Assembly (NCBI GenBank): GCA_022842845.1
Contig: JALHOT010000003.1
Location: 62,001-126,000, forward strand
DNA length: 64,000 nucleotides
Source of the DNA: Cyclobacteriaceae bacterium
GTDB taxonomy: Bacteria; Bacteroidota; Bacteroidia; Cytophagales; Cyclobacteriaceae
Direction of reading: 5' to 3'
Shown here: one piece after another, positions 7,301-55,980 of the stretch
How positions within the stretch are numbered: position 1 is the first letter of the stretch
How the letters are laid out: every line of letters starts with the position of its first letter
Translations under genes and position numbers: made by a program
The notes under the pieces: generated by a model
What the model was told of the DNA's origin: nothing
The model's input: only the letters and a program-made list of their open reading frames with translations
Databases searched by the model: none

Positions 7301-10300
7301 AAGCAACTTTCGGTACACTACAAAGCATTGATGTAGTGGCAGGGCAAGCGTTGAATTTAACGGCCTCAGTAGGTGGTGTCAACAATATTTACCAATGGAA
7401 AAAAGTATCAACAAACGTGGGTACAAACTCAATCACCTTTACCATTCCTACAACGGTGTTGACCGATGCTGCAACGTATACCCTAACAGTTACAAATAGT
7501 ATTGTTCCATCCTTAACGCTTACTTCGGCAAATTTCAATGTTAAAATTAAAGCTGAATCCTTTTTTGAATGGATTTCCAACGCAGGGGATCTCACCACGG
7601 AAGGCTTGGCCCCCCCGGTTAACCAAGTTACTGACCAAAATTACAGTGGCAGTTGGGGAGATTTCAATAATGATGGACTTGAAGACCTTTATGTGATGGG
7701 CTTTGCAACCCAAGAAAGAGGATTTATCTATAAAAACAATGGCGATGGTACTTTTTCTAAACTGCCCAACAGTTCGTATTTCTTTGCTTCGGGCCGCAGT
7801 GCTACTTGGGCCGATTATAACAATGACGGATTCTTAGATTGCTTTGCTCCAGGTGGAAACACGACTGCCACTGATTCCATTTCTTTTGCCTCTGTCTATA
7901 AAAATAATGGCAACGAAACGTTTACACGGATTCCCTTACCTACAACCGCTTCGGCAGGCACCTGGTCTGATACGGATAATGATGGTGACGTGGATCTTAT
8001 CACCAATGGTGGTGGTGCCTTCCCCACACTTTTTCGAAACGAGGGGAACGATAGTTTTATGGCGCTTCCTGTATTCTCCACCAATGCCAGTGCCCAATGG
8101 AATATTATTACCGTGGATGTGAACAATGACAATATAGCAGACGTCTATATTCCTGACGACACGCAGCGAAATTTTTATGTTGGAAATGGAGACAACACCT
8201 TTACCCTAAACGCCACCACTCCGCTGGTGACAGATGTTCTGGCTGGCGCTCGAGGCATTTCGTGGGCCGACATTGACAACGATGGTGATTTCGATGCCTA
8301 CATCATGGGCAATTCCGTGGGCAATCGTTTCTATATAAATGATGGAGCCGGTAACTTTACCTTTCAGCCCACCACAACTATTTTAGGCGAAACCATAATA
8401 GGCTCTCGTGGTAGTGCCTTTGCCGATTATGATAATGATGGTTATGTAGATTTACTCAGTATACAAAGTCAGGCCCCTGCCGGGTGGTACTTATTTAAAA
8501 ATAATGGGAATGGCACCTTTACGAAACAACTAACTCAAAGCTTTAAAGGAGGTGGGGGTTTAGTAGGTGCCTCCTTTGGTGATTATGATAATGATGGGTT
8601 TTTGGATATTGTGTCCGCCTCCTTCGGTCTTGATTTTAACGGCCTCTACAAAAATAAAGGCAACAGCAACAACTGGTTGCAAGTGAAGTTAACCGGTACG
8701 ATGTCTAATCGCAGCGCCATCGGTGCCAAAGTGAGTGTAAAAGCTGGGGGATTCTGGAGACATGCGCAAGTGCTCACTGCCAATGGTTTTGCTAACCAAA
8801 ATTCACTGATTCAACAGTTTGGGTTGGGTGCTTCCACCACCGCTGATTCAGTCGTTATCAAATGGCCTTCGGGTGCCATTCAAACAGAATTGAACATAGC
8901 AGCCAACCAGCGTATTAACATCACGGAGGAAAATGCAGACTTAGAGGCCCTTGTGGCTCTTTACGACTCAACCGGTGGAGCAACCTGGACGAACAAAACG
9001 AACTGGCTGACGGGCCACGTTACTACTTGGTACGGTGTACGGGTGGCAAATGGAAGGGTGACCGATGTTAGGCTTCCAAATAACAACCTGACGGGCTCTA
9101 TTCCTCCAGCCATCGGCAACCTAAACGCCCTGGATTCACTGGAACTTGGCGGCAACCAATTGACGAATGGTATACCAGATGTTTTTTCAACTTTCAGCAA
9201 ACTGAAATACATCAATTTCGGTAGCAACCAACTTACTGGGGGCATACCCTCTACCCTGTTACAGTTAGATAGTTTAAGGACTTTAGGAATGGCCAGGAAT
9301 AATTTATCAAACACTATTCCGGCTGCCATTGGAAACCTCACGAGCCTTCGAAAGTTATGGTTAGATGAAAACCAGTTCAGCGGCCCTCTTCCAAACGAAT
9401 TGGGCAACCTCACGAGCCTAACTGATTTGTATGTACAAAAAAACCAATTAACCGGGGCCGTCCCTGCTTCCTTCGCCAACCTCACCAACCTGGTGGGTTG
9501 CGGATTGGATGACAACTCCTTTACCTCTTTACCCATTCTTACAGCACTTTCGAACCTAACCTACTTTAACATTACGGGTAATCAATTCACCTTCGAATCG
9601 TTAGAGCCCAATGTGGGTGTACCTGGAATCTTTTATACACCTCAAGATAGTCTGGGACTTGCTGACACCGTTTTAATTCCGACCAACCAGCCATATACCC
9701 TTAGCTATACCGTTGGTGGCAGTGCCAATACTTATGAATGGAAAAAGAACAATACCACCATCAATGGCATAACAGGTAACGGCCTTACCATCGGCACCCC
9801 TGTCTTTGCCGATGAAGGCACCTACAGACTTGAGGTACAAAGTCCATTGGTGCCCGGTCTTACCTTGTTTACTCGGCCAGTGCTGGTGAAAGTCTCATCA
9901 CTGAAAAGAGATTCCATCGCGCTAGCTAAATTGTATGCGGCAACAAACGGCAACAACTGGACCACCAAAACCAATTGGAATACTACTCCTATTTCCACCG
10001 GCAATTGGTTTGGGGTAACCATTACGGCTAATCGTGTCACACAAGTAAACTTGCCTTCAAACAAGTTGCAGGGACCAGTGCCCAGTGAATTTGCAGATTT
10101 GGAAGGAGTCACTACCATTAACCTGTCAAACAATTCCATTACCTCCTTACCCAATTTCACCACCTATCCTAACATTACCTCATTGAATGTGTCGGGAAAT
10201 AACCTTGACTTTGCCTCCTTAGAAGGAAATAGAAATCTGACCGGGATAAATTTTTCCGGCCAGAAAAATCCGGTGTTGGGTCCTGATACAATCCTCGTGG

Positions 10301-42748: not shown

Positions 42749-44632
42749 ATGAAAAGTACTGGCTTTTACATCTTCTTAATAATATTTGCAGGCACAATTT
42801 GTCATGCCCAAATCAAAGAGGATAGTACCGCTATTTACCGTTTATTGCAAAACGCCCAAAACATTCGTCTCAACAAACCCGACAGTACTATTTACTATGC
42901 CAAGCAAGTACTGCCCCAGTTGACTCCAGAGAATTATTACCTCAATGGTTTTGCCTATTACCAACTTGCCTACAGCAATTGGGTAAAAGCCAATTATAAG
43001 TTGAGTGCCGAGTATGGCTACCGAGCCTTGAAATACATGGAACATACAGACCATGATTATGAAAAGTCACTCATATTACTCGAACTAGCGCGCACATTTA
43101 TTGATCTTAATAATGATGTGGAAGGCCGTAAATATTTATCTAAAGTTTACAAACTGGCCATGAATCATCCGGAAAACCCTGTAATACTCGCAAACTATTA
43201 TCGTGAATTGTCGCTTTACTATGCAGAAACAAACCAAAATGATTCAGCCTTGTATGTATCCGATAAAGCGATTGAAATTTATGAACTCCGCGGAGACACA
43301 CTGAACAAAAGTGTGTTGATAGGTCGTAAGGCGCGTATACTCTTATCGCAGCTTAAATTCAAAGAAGCCATGGCTTTATCGCGTAAAGCCACCATACTCG
43401 ATAGTCTGGTTAATAACAAACGAGCCCTGGGTATTAGCAACCTGCAGATGGCTACTGCCTTGGTGGGACTTAAGAATTATGATAGCGCGATTATATACCT
43501 TAATAAGTCCATAAGACTTAGCGGAGAACTTAACAATTGGCTCGCGCTCTACAGAGCTCACAATACGATGAGTAAAGTATACTTAGAAAAGAAAGAGCCC
43601 TATTTAGCCATCAATCATTTGAAACAAGCTGAGCAATATAAAGACAGCATGTACAACGCAAGTGCCTCAGGACAAATTGAGGAAATGAAAATTTTATATG
43701 AAACAGAGCAGAAGGACAATATGATTACTCTGTTGGAAAAAGAAAATGAGTTAAAACAACAACAAGGTAAAACACAAAAAATCCTTGTCATCTCCTTAGT
43801 TCTCTTTATTATTTTATTATGGGCCCTGTTGTTTCTTCAAATGCGATCACAGCGCATTCAAAGAAAAGCCAATGAAGAATTATTTCTTCGAAATGTTTCA
43901 ATAGAACAGCAGAAAGAGGAAATGCAATTGCAAGCCGAGAAATTACAAGACCTTAATCAACTTAAGTCAAAGTTATTCTCCGTTATCAGTCACGATTTGC
44001 GTGGCCCTATCAATAATTTACAATCACTACTTGATCTATTATCGAGAAACCTCCTTTCGCAAGAAGAGTTTTTGAAACACTCTGATAAGTTACGGGCCAG
44101 TGTTAATGTAACGCAACGCACCCTTGAAAATCTGCTGAATTGGTCATTAAGCCAAATGGAAGGCATACGCACCCGTCCCACTATCATTGATATCAAGAAT
44201 TCAATAGAGGAAGCCTCACGCTTGCTTAATGATATCGCTTCAAGAAAAGAAATCTGTATTAAAAATGAATTGAAGGATTCTCTGCTTGTTTATGCAGACC
44301 CCGATCAGGTGCAGGTTATTTTAAGAAACTTAATTCACAACGGCATCAAATTTTCCAAAGCTGGAACGTGCGTTACTATTACTGCACTTGTTCAGGACAA
44401 AATGTGCTCCATCACTGTTCAGGATCAGGGCATTGGCATGTCACCAGAAGAATTGTTGCGCCTGGAAATTAGCAAAGATCATTTTACTAAAATTGGTACA
44501 CTCCAGGAAAAGGGAACAGGTCTCGGATTTTTGTTGTGTCGCGAATTTGTTCACCATAACGAAGGCAAACTCAGTGTGAGCAGTGAAACAGGTGCAGGCA
44601 CAAAAGTTACTTTTACCCTGCCACTCGCTTAG
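42749..44632 (+). CDS. TPR-containing sensor histidine kinase, second copy
   Basis: 627 aa. Signal peptide MKSTGFYIFLIIFAGTICHAQ, periplasmic TPRs over about 300 residues ('ISNLQMATALVGLKNYDSAI'), one transmembrane helix (ILVISLVLFIILLWALLFLQ) and a coiled coil. The H-box is 'SVISHDLRGPINNLQSLL' (His415), and the ATPase boxes are N 'LRNLIHNGIKFSKAG', G1 'VQDQGIGM' and G2 'KGTGLGFLLCREFV'. Same architecture as the kinase at 20-22 kb. No response regulator is adjacent. Its last 4 bp overlap the stop of the convergent CDGSH gene. Confidence 0.9.
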   Translation: MKSTGFYIFLIIFAGTICHAQIKEDSTAIYRLLQNAQNIRLNKPDSTIYYAKQVLPQLTPENYYLNGFAYYQLAYSNWVKANYKLSAEYGYRALKYMEHTDHDYEKSLILLELARTFIDLNNDVEGRKYLSKVYKLAMNHPENPVILANYYRELSLYYAETNQNDSALYVSDKAIEIYELRGDTLNKSVLIGRKARILLSQLKFKEAMALSRKATILDSLVNNKRALGISNLQMATALVGLKNYDSAIIYLNKSIRLSGELNNWLALYRAHNTMSKVYLEKKEPYLAINHLKQAEQYKDSMYNASASGQIEEMKILYETEQKDNMITLLEKENELKQQQGKTQKILVISLVLFIILLWALLFLQMRSQRIQRKANEELFLRNVSIEQQKEEMQLQAEKLQDLNQLKSKLFSVISHDLRGPINNLQSLLDLLSRNLLSQEEFLKHSDKLRASVNVTQRTLENLLNWSLSQMEGIRTRPTIIDIKNSIEEASRLLNDIASRKEICIKNELKDSLLVYADPDQVQVILRNLIHNGIKFSKAGTCVTITALVQDKMCSITVQDQGIGMSPEELLRLEISKDHFTKIGTLQEKGTGLGFLLCREFVHHNEGKLSVSSETGAGTKVTFTLPLA

Positions 44633-45057
44633 GCAATAAAATCTATTTTTTTGTGGCTACCATCACAGAAAGGCTTATTACCTGAAGCTCCGCAACGACA
44701 GAAGGCTGTTACATTATTCTTTTTGCTCAGCACACCATCAGCATTTTTAATCACCACATTGCCATAAACAAGCAGCGGGCCATTAGGTGATGGCTCTACG
44801 ATGGTTTCAGCATGAACCGAAACGGGTGCACTATCGGCTGACTGATTCATGAAATAACTAAGTGCACCACTAGGACACTTCTTTACTTGTTCAATAATTT
44901 TTTCTGTTGTGGATTTCTCAGGGGTAACCCAGGGTCTTTTTCTTGGATCAAACACTTCTCCCAAGCCTTTAAAGCAAATAGTAGAATGAATACAGGCTTT
45001 TGGTTTCCAAACAATCGTTACTTCACCATTGCTATATTTTTTTTCAATGTCCTTCAT
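44629..45057 (-). CDS. Fer4_19 + CDGSH iron-sulfur protein
   Basis: 142 aa, cytosolic. The N-terminal half is a divergent mono-cluster 4Fe-4S domain (YjdI/Fer4_19 type) with 'WKPKACIHSTICFKGL' and a later 'VKKCPSGAL'. The C-terminal half has a complete CDGSH signature 'CRCGASGNKPFCDGSH', which binds a redox-active, labile 2Fe-2S cluster through three Cys and one His. It is the last gene of the six-gene leftward operon from 48.2 kb. Its start overlaps the OsmC stop by 4 bp (ATGA), and it ends 4 bp inside the convergent kinase gene. A role in redox or electron transfer for the detoxification operon is inferred. Confidence 0.85.
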   Translation of the reverse strand: MKDIEKKYSNGEVTIVWKPKACIHSTICFKGLGEVFDPRKRPWVTPEKSTTEKIIEQVKKCPSGALSYFMNQSADSAPVSVHAETIVEPSPNGPLLVYGNVVIKNADGVLSKKNNVTAFCRCGASGNKPFCDGSHKKIDFIA

Positions 45058-45470
45058 GCCTTTGACGATTCGTTGATGACTGAAAGCATAGTATTAATCT
45101 CTATCGGATGCGTTAATGCTTTATGAACAGGACATAATTTAGCAATTTGAAGCATGCGCTGGCGCTGAGCTTCCTGTAAATCTCCAAAAATCTGGATGTC
45201 GGAATCAAAAGCAGTGCCTCCTTCTACCTCTCTGGAAGTTACTGCTACTTCAATTCGGTTTACGGCAAAACCTTTTCTGTTAGCATACATGCGCAAGGTG
45301 ATGGCCGTGCAAGAGGCTAGCGACATCCTTAAAAAATCGCCAGGCCTTGGGCCAGTATCCTTTCCCCCCGCATCTAAAGGTTCATCGGCAATTACATGAT
45401 GTTGTCTTGCCACCATCTCTGTTCTATAAAGGTCTGTACCAATGGTGGCAACCGCAATTTTTTCTTCCAT
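45054..45470 (-). CDS. OsmC-family thiol peroxidase-like protein
   Basis: 138 aa from ATG 45470 (MEEKIAVATIG). The longer track start would overlap the nitroreductase stop. The OsmC/YhfA-type pattern is seen: 'DFLRMSLASCTAITLRMYAN' carries the first conserved Cys, and 'MLQIAKLCPVHKALTH' the second. That Cys pair is the redox-active one in OsmC/Ohr proteins that reduce organic hydroperoxides. Cytosolic. Start and stop are tightly coupled to both neighbours (1-bp gap upstream, 4-bp overlap downstream), which supports co-translation in the pirin-to-CDGSH operon. Confidence 0.85.
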   Translation of the reverse strand: MEEKIAVATIGTDLYRTEMVARQHHVIADEPLDAGGKDTGPRPGDFLRMSLASCTAITLRMYANRKGFAVNRIEVAVTSREVEGGTAFDSDIQIFGDLQEAQRQRMLQIAKLCPVHKALTHPIEINTMLSVINESSKA

Positions 45471-45471
45471 G

Positions 45472-46077
45472 CTAGAAGATACCATTTTTTATAAAGGCTT
45501 CTTGCGCATATCGTTCGCGCGCAGCAAGCTCTTTTGTTCTTACCGCTTCTGGTAAGGTATCAACGGGTGCCGGATAACCGACCGCTAACATCACACCCAG
45601 GTCAAACTCATCAGGAATATTAAGTACCTGGCGGGCCTTCTCATGATCATAACCAGCCATCTGTCTTACCTGCAAACCAAGGGCTACTGCCTGCAAAGCA
45701 ATGGATGTGTTAGCTGCTCCCAAATCATACAATGCGTAGGCATTGGGTGAATTAAAGCGTTTGAAACTTTTTCTACTAATACTAAAAATTAAGAGAGGTA
45801 CATTTTCAACCCAAACCTTATTTCCATCATTCAATAGGCTAAAGAATTTTTCCCACAAAACACTCTGATCTCTGGTAGCATATAAATAATGCCAAGGCTG
45901 CTCATTCATACTTGATGCTGACCAACGGGCGGCTTCAAATAAGGAATTAATTTTTTCTGACTCTATGGCTTTACTAGAAAAGGCCCTGGTGCTTTTTCTG
46001 TTTTTAATCAAATCTGCTATCTCAAACTGGACAGCGCTGGATTTCTGTTTCTCCACAATTTCTGTTGTCATAACCAT
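45472..46077 (-). CDS. Nitroreductase-family FMN oxidoreductase
   Basis: About 201 aa; ATG 46077 or two codons later (MTTEIV). The FMN-binding N-terminal segment is 'NRKSTRAFSSKAIESEKINS' with 'AARWSASSMNEQPWHYLYA', and 'DLGAANTSIALQAVALGLQV' is the dimer and flavin helix. The C-terminal 'LGVMLAVGYPAP' is typical. Such enzymes reduce nitroaromatics or quinones with NAD(P)H. Bacillus MhqN, in a quinone-response operon, belongs to this family; that parallel is inference here. Fourth gene of the leftward operon. Confidence 0.88.
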   Translation of the reverse strand: MVMTTEIVEKQKSSAVQFEIADLIKNRKSTRAFSSKAIESEKINSLFEAARWSASSMNEQPWHYLYATRDQSVLWEKFFSLLNDGNKVWVENVPLLIFSISRKSFKRFNSPNAYALYDLGAANTSIALQAVALGLQVRQMAGYDHEKARQVLNIPDEFDLGVMLAVGYPAPVDTLPEAVRTKELAARERYAQEAFIKNGIF

Positions 46078-46101: not shown

Positions 46102-46506
46102 TTACTTACTCCACTTAGGAATTCCCCAAATAGCCAGAAATCCTGAGAAAAGGTGCATAGGACCTGTTAAAAGAGGAAAAGTTTCATCCAATACAGTACC
46201 ATCGGGAAGTTGTGTGCTGGTAAAAACTGGGTAAAAGCTAAAGAGTACAAAGGCGATGCTAATGACCATCCAAAGTAATTGGCCTTTGGGCATATATCGC
46301 TTAAAAATAAAGTACAAGAAAGCCCCAATGAGGACAGGAAGCAGAGAGGAGATTGTAACGGCCACCGCAAAACCCGGAGGAATGGTAGCACCAAGTACGC
46401 CAGCCAAAAAACTCCATAAGTGATTGACGCCAGCACCGATCAGTCCGGCTATTAATCCAGCCTTCAGTGCGCTTGATAATGTAATCGTGTTTGATTGTGT
46501 CATCAT
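46102..46506 (-). CDS. Four-TM membrane protein, DUF6069-like
   Basis: 134 aa, four hydrophobic helices: 'GLIAGLIGAGVNHLWSFLAG', 'FAVAVTISSLLPVLIGAFLY', 'LLWMVISIAFVLFSFYPVFT', and a C-terminal helix 'PMHLFSGFLAIWGIPKW'. The pattern matches DUF6069-type inner-membrane proteins, function unknown. It has 6 bp between it and the pirin gene upstream and 24 bp before the nitroreductase, so it is in the operon. A DoxX-like redox-linked role is an alternative guess only. Confidence 0.75.
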   Translation of the reverse strand: MMTQSNTITLSSALKAGLIAGLIGAGVNHLWSFLAGVLGATIPPGFAVAVTISSLLPVLIGAFLYFIFKRYMPKGQLLWMVISIAFVLFSFYPVFTSTQLPDGTVLDETFPLLTGPMHLFSGFLAIWGIPKWSK

Positions 46507-46512
46507 ATATAT

Positions 46513-47382
46513 TTAGGATTCAATTAGTACACCCATTTTTCCCATTTGATAATCTCGCATGGCTTCCATGATTTGGGTTTGATTGTTCATCACAAAAGGT
46601 CCATGCGATACGACTGGTTCATCCAATGGTTCACCACTTAACACCAGCATGCGTGTATCTTCCAATGCTTCGAAGGATATTCCATCACCATCCTGTTTAA
46701 AAAATACTGCATGCAATCCTTCCACCAGGCCATATCCTTCTAATGAAATTTTACCATCGAGTAAATACAACAGCACCTGGTGGTTGTCTGGGAGCTGATA
46801 ACTCATCTTACCACCTTTTTTAGCATAAACAGTAGCTGCATTTACTGGACTGAGCGTGGGTATTTTTCCATTAACACCAGCCAAGGTTCCTGCAAATACA
46901 TGATTGCTTACCAGCCCGTCATCAGAAAGTACAGTGGGCACTTCTGCTGTTTGAATTGGAAAGTATGATGGTTGATCCATTTTATGCTTCGCTGGACTGT
47001 TGATCCATAGTTGTATGATCTCCTGTCTTCCACCAATTTCATGAATATCGTGAGGCGGCCTTTCACTATGAATGATACCTCTGCCTGCATGCATCCATTG
47101 AGCCCCTCCTGCATATACAACATTGTTATTACCACGGCTGTCGCGATGGTGAACTCCTCCTTGAAAAACAAAGGTTACCGGAGAGAAGCCACGATGTGGA
47201 TGTGGATCTACACCACTGTGCAGCGCTGAACGCAACACCGGTACTTTTATGTTAGCATGATGCAATAATAAGAAAGGATCAACCTGTTGTACATTTTGCG
47301 TTGGCAAAGGTTGCCGTATAGGTAGACCACCCATATCCATCGGGTGGGCATATAATAAATGAGAGACAGTTCTTGATTTCAT
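46513..47382 (-). CDS. Pirin-family protein (cytosolic)
   Basis: 289 aa, bicupin. Metal ligands sit in the N-terminal cupin motif 'SGVDPHPHRGFSPVTFVFQG' and in 'WMHAGRGIIHSERPP' (HxH and later E/H). This matches human pirin and E. coli YhhW, which can oxidise quercetin. There is no signal peptide. It follows the second pirin gene by 24 bp in the same operon. Quercetinase or quinone-related oxygenase activity is plausible from the family; in several bacteria pirins act as redox-sensitive regulators instead. Confidence 0.88.
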   Translation of the reverse strand: MKSRTVSHLLYAHPMDMGGLPIRQPLPTQNVQQVDPFLLLHHANIKVPVLRSALHSGVDPHPHRGFSPVTFVFQGGVHHRDSRGNNNVVYAGGAQWMHAGRGIIHSERPPHDIHEIGGRQEIIQLWINSPAKHKMDQPSYFPIQTAEVPTVLSDDGLVSNHVFAGTLAGVNGKIPTLSPVNAATVYAKKGGKMSYQLPDNHQVLLYLLDGKISLEGYGLVEGLHAVFFKQDGDGISFEALEDTRMLVLSGEPLDEPVVSHGPFVMNNQTQIMEAMRDYQMGKMGVLIES

Positions 47383-47406: not shown

Positions 47407-48210
47407 TTATTTCATGGGTACTTCCATTAATAAAATTTGCGCATCGCTTTCTGCTGTGAAGTTTAGCTTGTCTACATCCCATACACCGAGTCCGTCACGC
47501 TTATTCAATTTCTGATCATTGACAGTGACATCGCCTTCTATAATAAAGATATACACACCATGGCCGCTCTTGTTAAGCTTGTATTCGGTTCGCTTTCCCT
47601 TCAAGAAATTACCCAGTGAAAACCAGGCTTCCTGATGGATCCAAAGTGCCTCTGTATTTTGAAATGGCGATACAATGTTTTGCCATTGATTATTGCGCCC
47701 TTCGACTTGAAAAGACTTTTGATCGTATCGTGGCTTTACATTTCTCACATTTGGGAACACCCATATCTGAAGCAGGTTCACTTCTTCTTTTGCTGAAGCA
47801 TTCACTTCACTGTGCAAAACCCCGGTGCCTGCACTCATTACCTGCACCTCTCCTGCTTTAATAATGCCTTGACCTCCTGTATTGTCTTTATGCTGCAGGG
47901 CTCCTCGCAAGGGGATTGTAATAATCTCCATATTATCATGGGGATGCTCGCCAAAACCACGGCCACCAGCTACGATGTCGTCATTCAATACACGCAAGGC
48001 ACCAAATTGAATGCGGTTGCGATCATAATAATTGGCAAAACTGAAAGTATGGTGTGCATCCAACCAGCCGTGGTTGGCATGACCGCGCGTATTCGCTTTG
48101 TGTAATACACTTTTCATCATCTTTTGATTGCTATTTGAGCCCTGGCCCTGTGCGGAAAACACGACAATCGTTAACAAAAGGGCAAAAGCGCTGTTTTTTA
48201 ATGTTTTCAT
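47407..48210 (-). CDS. Pirin-family protein with predicted signal peptide
   Basis: 267 aa. The first 22 residues, MKTLKNSAFALLLTIVVFSA(QG), look like a cleavable signal peptide, which is unusual for a pirin. The cupin starts after it: 'NHGWLDAHHTFSFANYYD', then the metal motif 'GFGEHPHDNMEIITIPLRGA' and 'MSAGTGVLHSEVNAS'. If translation began at the internal MMKSVLHKA the protein would be a typical cytosolic YhhW-like pirin. It is the first gene of the six-gene leftward operon, with its start 53 bp from the palindromic MarR-type operator. Confidence 0.85.
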   Translation of the reverse strand: MKTLKNSAFALLLTIVVFSAQGQGSNSNQKMMKSVLHKANTRGHANHGWLDAHHTFSFANYYDRNRIQFGALRVLNDDIVAGGRGFGEHPHDNMEIITIPLRGALQHKDNTGGQGIIKAGEVQVMSAGTGVLHSEVNASAKEEVNLLQIWVFPNVRNVKPRYDQKSFQVEGRNNQWQNIVSPFQNTEALWIHQEAWFSLGNFLKGKRTEYKLNKSGHGVYIFIIEGDVTVNDQKLNKRDGLGVWDVDKLNFTAESDAQILLMEVPMK

Positions 48211-48256
48211 CGTTATTGTCTAGCTAGTACACGTAAAGCATAAATTAAAGTTACAA

Positions 48257-48280
48257 CAATTATTGTATATACAACTATTT
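48257..48280. promoter_or_regulatory. Candidate MarR operator, copy 1 (divergent promoter region)
   Basis: The perfect 12-bp palindrome TTGTATATACAA (48263-48274) lies in the 139-bp gap between the divergent pirin and dioxygenase operons. The extended 24-bp block 5'-CAATTATTGTATATACAACT-3' plus ATTT is identical at 21 of 24 positions to the block upstream of the MarR gene at 54128-54151. Conservation outside the palindrome argues against a chance AT-rich match. Confidence 0.72.
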
Positions 48281-48349
48281 TCCCGGTAATTCGTTCATTA
48301 ATTGTAAAAGGTCTAAAAGATCTTTATCAAACAAAAGCTACGAGACACT

Positions 48350-49309
48350 ATGAATAAACAATTGATAACCGGCATACACCACGTAACGGCACTGGCCGAT
48401 GACGCCCAAAAAAACGTTGATTTCTACACAGGCATATTAGGCTTACGCATGGTGAAGAAAACAGTAAACTTCGATGCACCGGATGTTTACCACCTATATT
48501 ATGGTAACGAAACAGGCAGTCCCGGTACTATCATGACCTTCTTTCCCTTTCAGGGGATGATGAAGGGAAGACACGGCAAAGGCCAGATGACGGCCACTTC
48601 GTTTTCTGTACCCGATACAAGCCTTGACTACTGGTTAAAACGCCTTAAAAAATTCGGTATACAACACACAGCACCCCAACAACGCTTTGATGATGAGCTA
48701 TTCATCTATTTTGAAGATATACACGGCTTAGGCTTAGAGCTTGTCTTTAATAAGGAAGACCAAAGACCCGGATTTACCTATGGTCAAACTCCCATGGAAC
48801 ATGCCGTGAAAGGTTTCCATGGTGTGGCACTAACTGAAGAGGGCTACGAACGCACTGCTGCTTTGCTTTTACAAGGGATGGATCATCAGCTCGTAAAAGA
48901 AAAAGGAAATCGTTACCGTATGTCTGCCAGCGGTGTACCTGGCGATTTTGTTGATATCATTCATTCACCGCAAGACAGTCGAGGGTTGGGTGGCAGCGGC
49001 ACCATTCATCACTTAGCCTTTGCCACACCCGATGATGATACCCAACTCCTTGTCAGGGATAAACTATTATCTAAAGGATTTAATGTTACGCCAGTACTCG
49101 ACCGGCAATATTTTCATAGCATTTATTTCCGCGAACCGGGAGGTATTTTATTTGAAGTAGCCACTAATCCACCAGGCTTTGCCATTGATGAACATCCTGC
49201 ACACTTAGGGGAAGCGTTGAAATTACCACCTTGGCAGGAAGCATCCAGAGCAACGATTGAAAAAGGATTACAGCCTATACAAGTCAACACCGATAAATTT
49301 ATGGACTAA
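48350..49309 (+). CDS. Ring-cleaving dioxygenase (VOC superfamily, MhqO-like)
   Basis: 319 aa, tandem VOC domains. The N-terminus 'GIHHVTALADDAQKNVDFYTG' gives the first His ligand, 'HGLGLELVF' follows, the second domain has 'GTIHHLAFATPDDD', and the end 'GGILFEVATNPPG' carries the Glu ligand. This is the organisation of Fe(II) hydroquinone/catechol ring-cleaving dioxygenases such as Bacillus MhqO and LinE-type proteins. Substrates are probably hydroquinones or catechols. It starts 76 bp from the operator and overlaps the esterase start by 1 bp (TAATG). Confidence 0.88.
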   Translation: MNKQLITGIHHVTALADDAQKNVDFYTGILGLRMVKKTVNFDAPDVYHLYYGNETGSPGTIMTFFPFQGMMKGRHGKGQMTATSFSVPDTSLDYWLKRLKKFGIQHTAPQQRFDDELFIYFEDIHGLGLELVFNKEDQRPGFTYGQTPMEHAVKGFHGVALTEEGYERTAALLLQGMDHQLVKEKGNRYRMSASGVPGDFVDIIHSPQDSRGLGGSGTIHHLAFATPDDDTQLLVRDKLLSKGFNVTPVLDRQYFHSIYFREPGGILFEVATNPPGFAIDEHPAHLGEALKLPPWQEASRATIEKGLQPIQVNTDKFMD

Positions 49310-49929
49310 TGGAACACATTAAGCAGTTAGTAGAAATTGGTTTACCTCTTAATCAAGCGAAGAAAGCTTTGGTATTGTTACATGGAAGAGGAGGATCAGC
49401 AGAAGACATTATTAGTCTTGCCAGCCATTTACCTGTCCAGGATTTTTATGTGGTAGCTCCACAAGCCACTAACCATACGTGGTATCCTTACAGCTTTTTA
49501 GCGCCTATTCCTCAAAACGAACCTTGGTTTAGCAGCGCCTTAAAACTTGTTAAAACTATAACTGACAATATACAAAAAGCAGGTATCAATGCTGAGAATA
49601 TTTATATCGGTGGGTTCTCGCAAGGTGCCTGCCTTACTTTAGAATTCTCCACCCGATATGCCCAGCGCTGGGGTGGTATTTTTGCATTAACAGGTGGCTT
49701 AATTGGAGATAACATCTATCCCAATCACTATCAGGGCAACTTTGCAGGAACATATGTTTTCATTAGCAATAGCCAGAACGACCCACATGTGCCGCTGAGC
49801 AGAAGCGAAGACTCAAAGCGACTGATGGAAAAAATGGGCGCCAATGTTACGCTGGATGTGTATCATAACCGACCGCACACCATTTTGGCTGAAGAGTTAC
49901 AAAAGGCATCTGTTCTATTTAAAGGTTAA
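49309..49929 (+). CDS. Phospholipase/carboxylesterase-family hydrolase (MhqD-like)
   Basis: 206 aa, cytosolic alpha/beta hydrolase. Oxyanion segment 'ALVLLHGRGGSAEDIISLAS', nucleophile elbow 'IGGFSQGACLTLEFS' (GxSxG), Asp near 'SQNDPHVPLS', and catalytic His in 'VYHNRPHTI'. It is translationally coupled to the dioxygenase (shared A of TAATG). The pairing of ring-cleaving dioxygenase and carboxylesterase copies Bacillus mhqO/mhqD. It convergently faces the NRAMP-like gene with only 20 bp between stops. Confidence 0.88.
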   Translation: MEHIKQLVEIGLPLNQAKKALVLLHGRGGSAEDIISLASHLPVQDFYVVAPQATNHTWYPYSFLAPIPQNEPWFSSALKLVKTITDNIQKAGINAENIYIGGFSQGACLTLEFSTRYAQRWGGIFALTGGLIGDNIYPNHYQGNFAGTYVFISNSQNDPHVPLSRSEDSKRLMEKMGANVTLDVYHNRPHTILAEELQKASVLFKG

Positions 49930-49949
49930 TACGTAGGCTTGTTGTATGA

Positions 49950-51128
49950 TTAGCTCAACCACTTGAGTATGGCTATCACACTCATGCCACTCATGGCCAT
50001 GACCACTAGCCAACCAAAAACGACAAGCCATCGAGGATGTTTGTAATCAGGCATCATCGAATGTTTTGTAGCAGCTATTAAAACAACGGCTAAGGCTACT
50101 GGCAAAATTAAACCGTTAATAGCTCCGGCTGATACCAAGAGTCGAACAGGATTGCCCAAGTACATAAAGAGTCCGCAGGAAAGAACAATAAAAAAAGAAA
50201 TCATGCTGCGCTGATGGCGATCAAAAAAAGGATGGAGGCCTTTTAAAAAAGATACAGAGGTATATGCGCAACCCACCACAGAGGTGATAGCAGCACACCA
50301 CATAACAATACCAAAAAATTTGTAACCTACATTTCCGGCTGCGTATTGAAAGACAGATGCCGCGGGATTTGTACTCGTGAGTACTGCCCCACCACTCACT
50401 ACACCAAGTACTGCCATAAATAATATGATACGCATAATACCGGTAATGATGATACCACTCACAGCACTGTTACTCACAGCGGGTAAATGCTCTTTACCCT
50501 TCATGCCCGCTGCCAACAAGCGATGTGCCCCCGCAAAACTGATATAGCCACCAACGGTCCCGCCTACCAATGTAACAATGGCTAAGGCATCTATCCTCTC
50601 AGGAATAAAAGTTTTAAAGACTGCCTCCACCAAAGGTGGTTGTGATGCAATGGCCACATAAAGTGTGAGCACTATCATGGTAATGCCCAACCATTTGGTG
50701 AATACATCTAATGCTTTACCAAATTCTTTTATCCAAAATAAAGTTAAAGCTACGAGACAACTAATGCCTGCGCCCACCTCGTTACTGAGGCCGGTAATAA
50801 CGGACATACCCAAACCACATCCACCCATGTTGGCTATGTTGAACACGAGGCCCCCTGCCAAAATTAAAAATGCTAAGCAATAGCCTAATCCCGGCAATAC
50901 ATGATTGGCCAATACTTGCGCATGCATTTCACTTTGCGTTAGTATTCTCCAGATATTTAACTGAGCGCCAATATCCAGTAGAATAGAAATTAAAATGACG
51001 AAGCCAAAACTGGCCAGCAGACTTTGTGTAAATACAGTTGTTTGCGTAAGAAAACCAGGACCAATAGCAGAGGTGGCCATTAAAAAGGCAGCACCTATCA
51101 GAGCCGATGAACGTTTAATTTTTGTCAC
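49950..51128 (-). CDS. NRAMP-fold transporter lacking metal-binding motifs (YcsG-like)
   Basis: 392 aa, about 11 hydrophobic helices. TM1 reads 'ATSAIGPGFLTQTTVFT', where NRAMP metal transporters have DPGN. The TM6 region 'GGYISFAGAHRLLAAGM' lacks the MPH(N) metal Met. The fold is related, but the Asp and Met ligands for Mn/Fe are missing, so metal transport is unlikely. It overlaps the pxpA stop by 4 bp. The same pair (ycsF-ycsG) is found in Bacillus near kipI/kipA. I infer 5-oxoproline or a related small-molecule uptake, which must be tested. Confidence 0.82.
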   Translation of the reverse strand: MTKIKRSSALIGAAFLMATSAIGPGFLTQTTVFTQSLLASFGFVILISILLDIGAQLNIWRILTQSEMHAQVLANHVLPGLGYCLAFLILAGGLVFNIANMGGCGLGMSVITGLSNEVGAGISCLVALTLFWIKEFGKALDVFTKWLGITMIVLTLYVAIASQPPLVEAVFKTFIPERIDALAIVTLVGGTVGGYISFAGAHRLLAAGMKGKEHLPAVSNSAVSGIIITGIMRIILFMAVLGVVSGGAVLTSTNPAASVFQYAAGNVGYKFFGIVMWCAAITSVVGCAYTSVSFLKGLHPFFDRHQRSMISFFIVLSCGLFMYLGNPVRLLVSAGAINGLILPVALAVVLIAATKHSMMPDYKHPRWLVVFGWLVVMAMSGMSVIAILKWLS

Positions 51129-51877
51129 GCTCGTATTGTTTGAATATCAATTGCATTCGCTTCCAGAAAATGTCGGATGATTTGCGCAAACGAAACGGCA
51201 TGATCACCATCACCATGCAGACAAATGGTTTCTACCGCTAAGGATATTTCTTGCCCCGACACTGCCTTAACACGCTTTTGCTTTACCATCATCATTACTT
51301 GTGCCAGCGAGGCCTGTTGATTTGTTATCAGTGCATTAGGTTGTGTGCGGGGTGTTAATGATCCGTCATCCTGATACGTTCGGTCCGCAAATACTTCGCT
51401 GGCTGTAATCAAACCTTGAAGCGATGCCTGTAAAGTAGTTTGGCTACCGCTTAAGCCATACACAATCAGCGATGCATCAATTTCTCTCACGGTCCGCGCA
51501 AAAACCTCACTGATCTCTGCACTTCTTGCAGCCATATTGTACAAAGCACCATGGAGTTTTACATGGTGTAACCTGGCGCCTGCGCTTGCACAATGCTTCC
51601 TTATTAAATGTATTTGTTCTGCAATTAAATCTTGCAGGGCAACCGATGATAAAGACATTTCTACTCTGCCAAAATTTTCTTTGTCACGAAAACCAGGGTG
51701 AGCGCCAATGGCCACTTGATGCTTCAAACAAAGTTCTATGGTTTTCTGCATGGTTGCCTCAGTACCAGCATGAAAGCCACAGGCAATATTAGCACTGCTC
51801 ATATAATTCATCAGCGCTTCATCGTTGGGCATGTCTTCCCCCACGTCACAATTCAAATCAATTGTCTGATTGCTCAT
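51125..51877 (-). CDS. pxpA: 5-oxoprolinase subunit PxpA (LamB/YcsF family)
   Basis: 250 aa, cytosolic. Family motifs: 'IDLNCDVGED' at the start, 'IACGFHAGTEATM', 'IGAHPGFRD', 'HHVKLHGALYNMAARS', and 'CLHGDGDHAVSF' at the end. With PxpB and PxpC it forms the prokaryotic ATP-dependent 5-oxoprolinase that opens pyroglutamate to glutamate. It overlaps pxpC by 20 bp and the transporter start by 4 bp, which indicates tight coupling. Confidence 0.93.
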   Translation of the reverse strand: MSNQTIDLNCDVGEDMPNDEALMNYMSSANIACGFHAGTEATMQKTIELCLKHQVAIGAHPGFRDKENFGRVEMSLSSVALQDLIAEQIHLIRKHCASAGARLHHVKLHGALYNMAARSAEISEVFARTVREIDASLIVYGLSGSQTTLQASLQGLITASEVFADRTYQDDGSLTPRTQPNALITNQQASLAQVMMMVKQKRVKAVSGQEISLAVETICLHGDGDHAVSFAQIIRHFLEANAIDIQTIRA

Positions 51878-52853
51878 AAAGCTCCGATATTACATCTTTT
51901 AACCGAAATGAAATAGAAAAGGCAAGCTGCTCTATGTGGGTGACTTGCTGCATGAAATACATTTCAGCTTCCTGATGGCTGACAACACTAAAATAAAGCG
52001 ATGCACCAATAGCCCTTTGTGCCAACCGGCTGCGGTCTGCACTCGCCACATGGGCGATACGCGGATAGCCACCCGTTGTCTGGTGGTCGGCCATTAAAAT
52101 AATCAACTGACCATCGGGCAATAATTGAACGGTGCCAAAGTTCACTGCAGCAGAGGGTAACTCCTCATTTTTGCTTTTTAGCAGAGCCTTACCAAGCAGC
52201 CGATAGCCCATGCGATCGCTTTGTTTGCTCACCACAAACTTTATTTTACAAAAGTCCTTCTGTGCAGACTTGTTTAACCACAACCACTCTATTCCGGTAA
52301 CACAACGAATCGTATCAGATTCCTGCATAAATTGCCTGACATCTGCATACCAGGGAAATATTCTCAGGGTATTAACTTCTCTGGCCTTTCTTTTAAAATT
52401 AATAACATCACCCTTTAAGAGCCTCCTGCCATTAAAACCACCTGCCTTTACTTTTGTATGAGTACTTGTACTTGCTAACCAGTCATCAAGTTCATATCCT
52501 CCATGTACGGCCAGATAAGCGTAAGCGCCTTGTTTCCATGTTGCAAAAGATAATACAGTACCTGCTGCTACAACGAAAGGCTTGCATCCAACCAAGTGAG
52601 CATTGTTGAGCTTCGCCTCAAAATCAGCTCCTCCTACTACTAACAGAGCGGCCTGGTTAAACTGAATAACGGGAGCTGGAAAAGTGAACTCCAAAACACC
52701 TTCATCGGGCTTGTTGCCCACCACTATATTGGCCACTTGCATAGATGCCAGATCCATGGCTCCACCAACGTTAATCCCTACATGCTGCCACCCCTTTCTT
52801 CCTCCATCCTGAAAGGTATCATGCAAGCCAGCTTTAAGAATCAACATACTCAT
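51858..52853 (-). CDS. pxpC: 5-oxoprolinase subunit PxpC (KipA-like)
   Basis: 331 aa, biotin-dependent carboxyltransferase-like/KipA family. Motifs: 'LHDTFQDGGRKGWQHVGINV' at the N-terminus, 'NKPDEGVLEFTFPAP', 'YLAVHGGYELDDWLAS' in the middle and 'MADHQTTGGYPRIAHVAS' near the end. It partners with PxpB. Its start overlaps the pxpB stop by 4 bp. The order B-C-A with a transporter last is common for this operon type. Confidence 0.92.
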   Translation of the reverse strand: MSMLILKAGLHDTFQDGGRKGWQHVGINVGGAMDLASMQVANIVVGNKPDEGVLEFTFPAPVIQFNQAALLVVGGADFEAKLNNAHLVGCKPFVVAAGTVLSFATWKQGAYAYLAVHGGYELDDWLASTSTHTKVKAGGFNGRRLLKGDVINFKRKAREVNTLRIFPWYADVRQFMQESDTIRCVTGIEWLWLNKSAQKDFCKIKFVVSKQSDRMGYRLLGKALLKSKNEELPSAAVNFGTVQLLPDGQLIILMADHQTTGGYPRIAHVASADRSRLAQRAIGASLYFSVVSHQEAEMYFMQQVTHIEQLAFSISFRLKDVISELYEQSDN

Positions 52854-53572
52854 GACTTGTTGGATTTTAAAGACGACACTTCCTCAAACTCACTTTTTGA
52901 AATTTCATAAAACCGTACCGAATCTCCTGGTTGCAGATAAGAAGGCTCCTCTTTTGAAATATCAAACAATTGAATCGGGGTTCTGCCTATGATATTCCAG
53001 CCGCCTGGTGATTGCAATGGATAGATTCCTGTTTGATTCGCTGCTATGCCAACACTGCCAGCAGGAACAGCAGTTCGTGGCTTATCCAGTCGCGGGCCTG
53101 CGATGCGTTTATCAACGGTGCCCATATAGGCAAAGCCAGGAAGAAAACCCAACATGTAAACATGATATCGAATACCGGTATGCAGTTGAATAAGTTCTCG
53201 TACACTTATGCTGCACTTCTTGCTATAAGCAACTATATCTAAACCGTATTCAGGATGGTAACATACAGGCATATCAACACTTCTGGCAGATCGTGTTTCC
53301 GTTGGGAGCAGGGATGCCAGGCAGGTAGCTACATAACCCTTCACAAAGTGGTAGGGAGATTGTCCGTACTTTTTAAATAAAGTAGAAGCATCATACAAGA
53401 GTGTTAGTGAATTGTAAGCAGGAATCAAGTCAGTCCAGCACGGCTCAGCATCATTTAACAATGTAGCGTAGAGTTGATAGACGGCTTCATTGATCTCTAG
53501 ATTAATTTCATGACCAAAGCTTACTAGAAGCGCCTGATCACCTAATGGATGGAATGTAGGCTTGGTTTGCAT
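52850..53572 (-). CDS. pxpB: 5-oxoprolinase subunit PxpB (KipI-like)
   Basis: 240 aa, carboxyltransferase C-like/KipI family. 'HPLGDQALLVSFGHEINLEI' at the N-terminus and 'GIRYHVYMLGFLPGFAYMG' followed by 'PRTAVPAGSVGIAANQTGIY' are the family signatures. 'GWNIIGRTPIQLFDISKEEP' closes it. First gene of the four-gene operon; 77 bp downstream of the MarR stop. No copy of the MarR palindrome is seen in that gap. Confidence 0.92.
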   Translation of the reverse strand: MQTKPTFHPLGDQALLVSFGHEINLEINEAVYQLYATLLNDAEPCWTDLIPAYNSLTLLYDASTLFKKYGQSPYHFVKGYVATCLASLLPTETRSARSVDMPVCYHPEYGLDIVAYSKKCSISVRELIQLHTGIRYHVYMLGFLPGFAYMGTVDKRIAGPRLDKPRTAVPAGSVGIAANQTGIYPLQSPGGWNIIGRTPIQLFDISKEEPSYLQPGDSVRFYEISKSEFEEVSSLKSNKS

Positions 53573-53649
53573 GGCGAGCTAAAAGATACAGAAAACAACA
53601 TGCCACAGCAAACTTATTGATACTCACTTAATACAACTATCCTAAAAAA

Positions 53650-54102
53650 TTATGAGCTCCTCAATTTATCCAACATTCTATTCAGCTCTCGCGCTTCCTG
53701 CTTCGAAAGTTTATCCATCGCTTCTTTGAGTAGTGATGAATCTGCATCAATTTTTTTTAACAAGGTCAAGCCCTTGTCTGTGATGGAAATATCAACCTGC
53801 CTGCGGTTATTCTCACAAATTTCTCTTTGCACAAAATGCTTTTGCCTGAGTTTTTCTACAAGCCTGGTACAGTTACTGCTTTTATCAATCATTCTGCCAG
53901 TAATCTCAGATAGCATCAGTTTTTTAGGATGACTCCCCCTCAGAATACGCAATACATTAAACTGTTCAGGGGTGATATCAAATTTCTTCAGGTAAGAAGC
54001 ATTGATGCTATGCAGCCAGCTACTGGTAAACATGATGTTAATGGCTGCTTTGTGCTGCTCACTCTGAAACTTATCCTGTTTAATATCCTCTTCTAACGAC
54101 AT
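53650..54102 (-). CDS. MarR-family regulator, probable electrophile/quinone sensor
   Basis: 150 aa, the usual MarR size. The winged helix-turn-helix includes 'LMLSEITGRMIDKSSNCTRL' and 'LRQKHFVQREICENNRRQVD', with 'ISITDKGL' as the wing end. It has two Cys only: Cys78 in the recognition helix and Cys96 at the wing base, positions suited to redox or quinone modification. Upstream is an exact TTGTATATACAA that recurs at the pirin/dioxygenase promoters, so autorepression plus control of those operons is the likely role. The pxp genes follow in the same direction after 77 bp. Confidence 0.88.
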   Translation of the reverse strand: MSLEEDIKQDKFQSEQHKAAINIMFTSSWLHSINASYLKKFDITPEQFNVLRILRGSHPKKLMLSEITGRMIDKSSNCTRLVEKLRQKHFVQREICENNRRQVDISITDKGLTLLKKIDADSSLLKEAMDKLSKQEARELNRMLDKLRSS

Positions 54103-54127
54103 ATGCCTTCTAACGTGAAATTACCAT

Positions 54128-54151
54128 CAATTGTTGTATATACAAGTATTT
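54128..54151. promoter_or_regulatory. Candidate MarR operator, copy 2 (upstream of marR)
   Basis: TTGTATATACAA (54134-54145), 31 bp before the MarR start codon, inside a 24-bp block CAATTGTTGTATATACAAGT plus ATTT. It is 21/24 identical to the block at 48257. It also lies only a few bases 5' of the annotated ATG of the divergent ClC gene, which it may control as well. Confidence 0.72.
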
Positions 54152-54153
54152 AG

Positions 54154-55980
54154 ATGATAATCTGCTTGCATGGTTGCCCATATCATTTCATTTTTGGAGT
54201 AAATCTACTGGCATTGATAGAAAGGATTAATCGATTGGCCCGCGCAGCCATTTATCTGAGACATCATTTAAGTGATAAGCAGTTTCTGATTGTCAGTAGT
54301 ATTATTGTTGGTTTACTTTCGGGTGGAGCGGCTGTTGTCTTAAAATCATTTGTACACAGCATACAACATTGGCTTGAGCGTTACTCGTATCAGGACTTCT
54401 TACTGGTAAGTTTCTTCCCGTTGCTGGGGATTATATTGACCGTATTACTTATTCATACTTTCTGGAAAGTCTCCTTCAAAAAAGGCAGTGCAGAGATTAC
54501 TTATGCCATCACTAAGAAATCAAGTCAGTTACCACTCAGCCAAAGTTACTCGCACATTATAACCAGTGCCCTTACAGTAGGCTTTGGTGGTTCCACCGGA
54601 TTGGAGTCTCCCATGGTAAGTACTGGTTCTGCCATAGGTTCGAACGTAGCCCGTGGGTTCCGTCTATCATATAAAGAGAAAACAATTTTACTAGCCTGTG
54701 GCGCTGCTGCGGGTATAGGGGCAGCCTTCAACTCTCCTATTGCTGGTGTTTTATTCGCCATTGAAGTATTACTGGCCGATATCAGTGCAGCAGCTTTCAT
54801 TCCGCTCATTATTGCGGCAGCTACCGGTGCGCTGCTATCAAAAATTATATTAGCCGAAGGTGTACTACTCTCTTTTGTATTGGTCAGGCCTTTCGATTAT
54901 TACAATACACACTATTACCTATTACTTGGATTTCTATCTGGCCTGGTGGCTTTGTATTATGCAAAGTCCTTTGAGTTCTTTGATCAAATAATGAAAAATA
55001 TTTCGCGTACCTGGTTACGTGTAGTAATCGGTGGTGTGGTGTTAGCTTTTCTGATCATGCTCTTCCCTTCCTTGTTTGGTGAGGGGTATGATTCCATCAA
55101 AACTTTGGCCAGCCTGCAAACCGAAACGATTTTTGATCGCAGCTTGCTAGCCCCTTGGATACAAAATGACTACGCTATCCTTATTTTTTTAGCACTTGTT
55201 ACGATGCTGAAATCGGTGGCAGCGGCCATTACTATTGGCAGTGGTGGTAATGGAGGAAGTTTTGGACCCTCTCTCTTTATGGGTGCCTACATGGGCTTTG
55301 TGTTCGCACGCCTGCTCAATATTACGCTGGGTACTGACATACCCGAAGTGAACTTTGCCCTGGTGGGCATGGCAGGTATGTTGAGTGGTGTTTTCTATGC
55401 GCCCCTTACAGCCATATTTCTAATTGCAGAAATTACCGGAGGCTATGGGCTCATCATTCCCCTCATGATTGTTTCAGCCATCAGTTTAGCTGTTGCCAAC
55501 TATTTCCAGCCCAAAAGCATGGAAGCAAAAAAATTAGCCAAACTTCTGAACGCCAACATCGATGACCGCGATCAGTATTTATTAAGCAGGCTCGACCTGA
55601 CTCAACTCATTGAAACCAACTTTTTGACTTTGCGCCCTAACGATAACCTCCATGCACTGCGTAAAGCCATTGCGGCCTCCAGCCGTAATACGTTTGCTGT
55701 TACAGGCGAACAGGGTGAACTCCTGGGAATCATTCAGCTAGATGATGTGCGGCAAATCATTTTCTCTAGCGAAGGAGCAGAATCAATTGTAGTAAAAGAC
55801 CTGATGAACCTCCCCTCCGGCCAATTAACTACAGAAGATAATCTGCAAACTGCTCTGAAAAAATTTGATAGCACCGGTTTATGGAATCTGCCAGTGGTGG
55901 AAGGTAAGCGTTATGTCGGCTTCATCTCCAAATCATCATTACTAGCACGATACCGAACTGAATTGATTCGGTCTACCTAG
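54154..55980 (+). CDS. ClC-type chloride channel with C-terminal CBS pair
   Basis: 608 aa from ATG 54154; this ATG nearly touches the operator, and the first 20 residues are atypical. TTG 54214 (about 588 aa, starting MIERINRLARAA) is a plausible start. The ClC core has 'VGFGGSTGLESPMVSTGSAI' (filter region with the gating Glu, the GREGP equivalent), 'AFNSPIAGVLFAIEVLLADI', and 'GSGGNGGSFGPSLFMGAYMG'. The position of the E. coli proton glutamate (E203) is Val, as in ClC channels. The C-terminus has two CBS motifs ('LLGIIQLDDVRQIIF', 'YVGFISKSSLLARYR'). Inner membrane anion conduction is predicted. Confidence 0.88.
   Translation: MIICLHGCPYHFIFGVNLLALIERINRLARAAIYLRHHLSDKQFLIVSSIIVGLLSGGAAVVLKSFVHSIQHWLERYSYQDFLLVSFFPLLGIILTVLLIHTFWKVSFKKGSAEITYAITKKSSQLPLSQSYSHIITSALTVGFGGSTGLESPMVSTGSAIGSNVARGFRLSYKEKTILLACGAAAGIGAAFNSPIAGVLFAIEVLLADISAAAFIPLIIAAATGALLSKIILAEGVLLSFVLVRPFDYYNTHYYLLLGFLSGLVALYYAKSFEFFDQIMKNISRTWLRVVIGGVVLAFLIMLFPSLFGEGYDSIKTLASLQTETIFDRSLLAPWIQNDYAILIFLALVTMLKSVAAAITIGSGGNGGSFGPSLFMGAYMGFVFARLLNITLGTDIPEVNFALVGMAGMLSGVFYAPLTAIFLIAEITGGYGLIIPLMIVSAISLAVANYFQPKSMEAKKLAKLLNANIDDRDQYLLSRLDLTQLIETNFLTLRPNDNLHALRKAIAASSRNTFAVTGEQGELLGIIQLDDVRQIIFSSEGAESIVVKDLMNLPSGQLTTEDNLQTALKKFDSTGLWNLPVVEGKRYVGFISKSSLLARYRTELIRST

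Follow-up and report, generated by a model that had tools for sequence, protein, structure and literature searches.

Two near-identical palindromic blocks as probable operators of a MarR-family repressor, a pirin operon and a dioxygenase-esterase pair in a Cyclobacteriaceae genome

The DNA considered here is a 64,000-nucleotide stretch (the window) from a Cyclobacteriaceae bacterium (GCA_022842845.1, contig JALHOT010000003.1, forward-strand positions 62,001 to 126,000). It encodes a 150-aa MarR-family repressor (marR, 53650-54102, minus strand), whose recognition helix carries Cys78-Thr79, and it holds two exact copies of the 12-bp palindrome TTGTATATACAA, at 48263-48274 (site 1) and 54134-54145 (site 2). 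Site 1 lies 52 bp before the ATG of pirinB (start 48210, minus strand) and 75 bp before that of a ring-cleaving dioxygenase gene (start 48350, plus strand). The six-gene pirin operon runs from 48210 down to 44629 in the order pirinB-pirinA-DUF6069-nitroreductase-OsmC-Fer4/CDGSH, while the dioxygenase gene (48350-49309) leads into an esterase gene (49309-49929) on the other strand. The marR ATG (start 54102, minus strand) follows site 2 by 31 bp, and a ClC gene diverges from marR on the far side of that site. We consider it highly probable, from comparison across relatives, that the two blocks are operators through which this MarR would repress its own gene, the pirin operon and probably the dioxygenase-esterase pair.

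A preliminary description of this DNA had reported both palindromes at these coordinates, one before marR and one between the pirin and dioxygenase-esterase operons, and the exact matches and gene distances agree with it. The near-identity it saw around them also holds, but its count of 21 matching positions does not: the 24-bp blocks at 48257-48280 (CAATTATTGTATATACAACTATTT) and 54128-54151 (CAATTGTTGTATATACAAGTATTT) are identical at 22 of 24 positions, the last flank included. Its impression that the window holds no third copy proved right, as the 24-bp pattern with up to three mismatches finds these two places alone, and nothing in 100 shuffles of the window. Nor are copies scattered at unrelated genes in this genome (3,757,720 bp, 47 contigs), where the exact 12-mer occurs just twice, both times in the window; in distant relatives some copies do lie at unrelated genes, at background level. 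An extended pattern derived from relatives, TTGTNNNNACAANWATTG, likewise has exactly two genome matches at zero mismatches, sites 1 and 2. The single copy in the window with one mismatch, TTGTATGTACAA at 9427-9438, lies within a 2355-aa repeat-rich coding sequence and is probably a chance occurrence.

Phylogenetic footprinting gives very strong support to the autoregulation that had been proposed. Among 21 MarR orthologues of at least 62% identity, 18 have TTGTNNNNACAA within 100 bp upstream of the start, whereas 500 shuffles average 0.16 and never exceed 3; L049, L050 and L056 have one-base variants in the same place, and one further clade member, L021, has no TTGTNNNNACAA-type site upstream of its marR. 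Superposing the orthologue operators by their dyads shows four outer bases per side that hardly vary, around a TATA-like but unconstrained centre; AA stands at -5/-4, ATTG is found at +14 to +17 in most, and TTAYTTT is conserved at +21 to +27. Of the named species, Chryseotalea sanaruensis (Cytophagales) is nearest; its MarR is 88% identical, and we take genome G004 to be this species (G000 being the genome studied here). G004 has exactly two perfect sites, again before marR and between dioxygenase and pirinB, yet 26 kb apart. Its extended site 1 block is identical to ours amid intergenic DNA that hardly aligns, and the site 1 core also precedes pirinB in G002, G028, L058 and L063.

It could be argued that an AT-rich palindrome simply happens to occur twice near one MarR gene. 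The 12-mer alone is not rare, about 0.67 copies per genome being expected from base composition, and its raw count across relatives is no higher than that of a reversed-palindrome control, AACATATATGTT; such counts alone prove nothing. What goes beyond chance is that the flanks are shared as well, where the sites stand, and how well they are conserved: 22 of the 24 positions match once the flanks are counted, with no equivalent in shuffles, the site stands before most orthologues, and G004 has it at the same two positions. We rejected a chance repeat on the orthologue and shuffle results and regard its probability as negligible. The control itself is not clean, since AACATATATGTT marks the promoter of a YceI-marR2 gene pair in four congeners (G000, G001, G003, G004), which makes it evidence for an operator belonging to MarR2, the paralogue discussed below. 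Separately, G026 (L157, L158, L179) contains three perfect palindromes, at least one of them inside an open reading frame, and our search of this 94% complete genome found no member of the same regulator family.

Both sites overlap predicted promoters. The marR upstream region fits the Bacteroidota promoter TTG-N19-TAnnTTTG, its TTG coinciding with the operator's left arm; TAnnTTTG is the -7 consensus described for Flavobacterium (PMC9723704). Here the predicted marR promoter (54116-54145, minus strand) has its -33 TTG at 54145-54143 within the operator, N19, and TAATTTCA as its -7 element (54123-54116). TTG-N19-TTAYTTT recurs in the aligned orthologue upstream regions and is conserved in G004 and G002. 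The predicted pirin promoter (48246-48274, minus strand) is built alike, with the -33 TTG at 48274-48272 in the operator, N18 and a -7 element TAACTTTA (48253-48246), and a 39-bp run here is identical between G000 and G004 although the surrounding DNA is barely alignable. Because the -33 box of both promoters falls within an operator, repression by covering that box is the natural reading, which we infer from the promoter consensus. A sigma-70 promoter scan gave no useful information in this phylum. Each operator is accompanied by a degenerate secondary dyad on the minus strand: TTGTTGTAACTT at 48248-48259, 15 bp downstream in the pirin orientation and with a perfect TTGT half-site, and TTGATGGTAATT at 54119-54130, which coincides with the conserved columns +14 to +17. 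Full tandem dyads at exactly 15-bp steps occur upstream of marR and pirin genes in L145, L152, L035 and L037 and suggest cooperative or extended binding; this step amounts to about 1.4 helical turns.

The position of site 2 raises the question of whether it serves mainly the divergent ClC gene, with marR autoregulation incidental. The site does lie between the two genes, and they are divergent in at least seven genomes (L018, L046, L049, L051, L052, L053, L056). Many orthologues, however, keep the site 20-50 bp from marR with no ClC gene detected alongside (L048, L054, L057-L063), and the conserved promoter elements at site 2 are directed towards marR. We therefore find a primary role in ClC control very unlikely.

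Which protein binds these sites can be approached through the way regulator and operator vary together. In a tree of 53 family members, the MarR orthologues form one clade (support 97/97) with T-type operators (TTGTNNNNACAA); in the sister clade (support 97/90) operators are A-type (ATGTNNNNACAT) or mixed, and for some members we found none. The A-type member in this genome is MarR2 (C26:29095), 42% identical to MarR. At L177:2453-3533 its gene follows a YceI gene whose promoter has ATGTTAAAACAT-like repeats; the YceI-marR2 pair is conserved in G001, G003 and G004. The congeners G001 and G003 have MarR2 and lack the T-clade MarR, and where G000 and G004 have TTGTATATACAA-TAATTGTTGTAAC, the pirin promoter of G001 has ATGTTTAAACAT-TAATTGTTGTAAC and that of G003 a closely similar sequence. 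Across the loci examined, all ten with a T-clade MarR have a T-type pirin operator; where that MarR is absent, eight pirin operators are A-type and two T-type, others being without a clear site. The two exceptions (G016, G056) encode other MarR genes with T-type sites. Fisher's exact test on this association gives 0.0007, a guide only, as related genomes are not independent. This co-variation of regulator type with operator type is strong comparative evidence that MarR is the protein that would bind the sites. MarR2 might instead occupy them, alone or together with MarR: it belongs to the same family, only the outer bases and the centre set its presumed YceI operator (ATGTTAAAACAT type) apart from the T-type, and the sister congeners have A-type sites at the pirin operon. 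The segregation of operator types with the regulator, the A-type sites that accompany MarR2, its lack of a threonine at 78 or 79, and the T-type sites that the T-clade marR genes have in their own upstream DNA all speak against this, and we judge it improbable.

The threonine is of interest in its own right. In the initial set, Thr was present at position 78 or 79 of the recognition helix in 29 of 29 T-type regulators and in none of 13 A-type ones. This pattern was seen post hoc and largely follows the tree, and an independent-pair test was not significant, there being three contrasts in all, one of them supported. As so few contrasts could not reach significance, 40 further family members were fetched as a held-out set. 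Eight of these have a clear operator of their own, and all eight agree (three T-type with Thr, five A-type without; Fisher 0.018); one Thr protein and one non-Thr protein have mixed sites. Pooled, Thr occurs in 32/32 T-type and 0/18 A-type regulators. It is possible that Thr78/79, which tracks the outer operator base across these sequences, is a specificity residue; in Staphylococcus aureus MhqR, base recognition is predicted for residues that open this helix (PMC12893000). One may speculate further that, inside a single genus, the same pirin promoter has been passed between two paralogous MarRs by changes in the operator core alone (TTGTATATACAA versus ATGTTTAAACAT, TAATTGTTGTAAC being kept), with specificity set largely by Thr78/79, so that many Cytophagales MarRs would share a readable code. 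We offer this tentatively, as an idea with slightly less in its favour than against it.

The pirin operon is the most secure of the predicted targets besides marR itself, and footprinting across relatives very strongly supports its assignment to MarR. All its genes are on the minus strand. The first encodes a quercetinase-like pirin (pirinB, 47407-48210; PF02678, PF17954; YhhW-like, 1tq5, E 2.3e-65) with an N-terminal signal-like extension, and is followed by pirinA (46513-47382; PF02678, PF05726), a DUF6069 membrane protein (46102-46506; PF19545), a nitroreductase-family protein (45472-46077; PF00881), an OsmC-like protein (45054-45485; PF02566) and a Fer4_19 plus CDGSH iron-sulfur protein (44629-45057; PF06902, PF09360). 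In L061 all six genes follow marR directly in the same order, with one extra small open reading frame between the pirins, one operator before marR and another before pirinB. Variants of this marR-then-pirin-operon layout with their own site are found in L067, L063 and L048, and the order around the DUF6069 gene is kept in L061, L067, G004 and G028. G004, G002 and G028 keep a perfect TTGTATATACAA at the pirin operon, with marR located elsewhere. The extension of pirinB (48130-48210; MMKSVLHKANTRGHANHGW) precedes the usual pirin start and resembles a signal peptide, so an exported pirin is possible. Signal-like extensions are also present in G004, G002 and G028 (the loci concerned include L156, L099 and L101); L048, L058, L061 and L063 have a canonical Met start.

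Control of the dioxygenase-esterase pair, also claimed in the preliminary description, is well supported by the shared site, if less directly than for the pirin operon. The dioxygenase is MhqO-like (Bacillus subtilis MhqO, 3oaj, E 9.8e-85; the 2,6-dichlorohydroquinone dioxygenase 4huz matches at E 5.8e-53), and the esterase is a carboxylesterase/phospholipase with an MhqD-like role (PF02230; 4h0c, E 1e-66), which we rejected as an MhqD equivalog (NF047577, 35 bits against a cut-off of 325). Its case is the weaker because the promoter on the dioxygenase side is not conserved: between G000 and G004 the sequence diverges right after the operator, and the arrangement is conserved in two species only. 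The sites might then act on marR and the pirin operon alone, with the dioxygenase-esterase pair sharing the intergenic DNA but being controlled otherwise. The conserved promoter and the half-site asymmetry do face pirinB, and G002 and G028 have the pirin operon and its site with no adjoining dioxygenase. Yet both species with this arrangement keep the genes divergent around the site, an OsmC-dioxygenase operon in G039 has a perfect site ahead of it, and MarR genes of the sister clade stand in marR-YceI-dioxygenase-esterase units (L066, L075; in L036, marR-YceI-dioxygenase) with operators of their own. On balance we think such a restricted regulon unlikely. A dioxygenase homologue in G058 (L169:1862-2734) is frame-split with internal stops and apparently decaying; a perfect site lies about 490 bp upstream of it.

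MarR belongs to the MarR family by profile (PF01047, E 9.6e-8, above cut-off) and by its AlphaFold model (predicted local distance difference test 91.9), which has the winged-helix domain and the MarR order of elements and whose top Foldseek matches are all MarR family; palindromic sites at its own promoter and at adjacent predicted target genes also fit this family. Escherichia coli MarR is among the nearest structures (3voe, 5h3r; about 22% identity by fold comparison). Its operator marO, TTGCC..GGCAA, has the same 12-bp TTG/CAA geometry, but its marRAB targets and inducers are different. OhrR-type sensors have an N-terminal reactive Cys and a TACAATT-type operator; MarR has no N-terminal Cys and scores 24 bits against 200 for NF052638, and was rejected as an OhrR. 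The quinone regulons of the DUF24 regulators YodB, QsrR and CatR contain similar kinds of enzyme, namely ring-cleaving dioxygenases, the nitroreductase YodC and quinone reductases, but YodB and CatR carry a conserved N-terminal redox Cys6 (PMC6798810). DUF24 membership was rejected, since MarR lacks an N-terminal Cys6/7 and has cysteines at 78 and 96 only. A closer precedent for the operator is SCO3205 of Streptomyces coelicolor, for which conservation upstream of orthologues predicted two operators ahead of its own gene, and surface plasmon resonance and crystallography proved them (PMC3737563). A MarR dimer there binds a 12-bp operator with TTn...CAA arms (consensus TTnAAnnnTCAA); the sequence differs from ours, and the excerpted text of that report describes neither a detoxification theme nor an operator switch between paralogues (PMC3737563).

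The closest functional likeness is to the MhqR regulon of B. subtilis and S. aureus, in which a MarR-type repressor controls its own operon, a dioxygenase, the carboxylesterase MhqD and a nitroreductase-type enzyme from an operator overlapping the promoter region (PMC6798810, PMC12893000). Here, genes for an MhqO-homologous dioxygenase, an esterase and a nitroreductase adjoin the operators and are predicted to be under MarR control, but the proposed regulon is dominated by genes for pirins, OsmC and CDGSH proteins. The operator is TTGTATATACAA and not the 9-9 repeat TATCTCGAA-ATCGAAATA (reported as TATCTCGAA-aTCGAaATA; PMC6798810), and MarR has ITGRMIDKSSNCTRLVEKL where MhqR has its loop/helix signature L61IASSSI67-S68-Y69 (PMC12893000). 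S. aureus MhqR (9qdr) matches MarR at the general MarR level (E 1.9e-5; 23% identity by fold). Identity with MhqR was rejected on the operator, the missing signature and the low-scoring esterase.

We propose a model where a MarR dimer binds the 12-bp dyad, aided by the half-sites at the 15-bp step. At site 2 it would cover the -33 box of its own promoter and so repress itself; site 1 would place it over the corresponding box of the pirin operon, where it would probably silence the divergent dioxygenase-esterase pair as well. A quinone or related electrophile, suggested by the enzyme content, would release MarR, and enzymes for ring cleavage and ester hydrolysis would be made together with the nitroreductase, OsmC and pirins. 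By analogy with Bacillus MhqR and YodB, derepression on quinone or electrophile stress is most likely, here through a different operator and a non-orthologous regulator. Several points weigh against this model. MarR is not close to MhqR, which makes the inducer a guess; binding by this MarR is a prediction from comparison; and the second family member at C26:29095 might also bind the sites. Besides the unconserved promoter on its dioxygenase side, a dioxygenase in G050, 71% identical, is without such a site.

The preliminary description missed that site 2 also precedes the conserved ClC gene and that marR leads a further string of genes. Divergent from marR, the ClC-type channel/transporter (54154-55980, plus strand; PF00654) shows homology from residue 21 onwards, so that its true start may be the TTG at 54214 rather than the ATG at 54154. 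On the other side, after a 77-bp gap, marR is followed by pxpB-pxpC-pxpA (5-oxoprolinase) and an NRAMP-like transporter gene (49950-53572, minus strand), which are possibly the downstream part of its transcription unit; marR and pxpB are neighbours in L055 and L059 too. Elsewhere, perfect TTGTATATACAA copies stand before YceI genes in G056, G016, G058 and G039 (L150, L153, L168, L170), which suggests that YceI may belong to the wider regulon.

In the literature we searched, neither this Cytophagales regulon nor its operator is reported, and no MarR detoxification regulon is described for Bacteroidota; a search for TTGTATATACAA returned one unrelated Bacillus promoter review. The circuit is of an ordinary kind; its added interest lies in the switched operator and in the correlation with the threonine. 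For Bacteroidota, a defined operator can now be proposed along with its regulator and regulon, and a mixed set of pirin, nitroreductase, OsmC and dioxygenase genes may be read as a single response to electrophiles. With congeners that differ naturally in operator, and a threonine that correlates with operator type, a question about MarR specificity could be put to a direct test with two proteins and two short duplexes.

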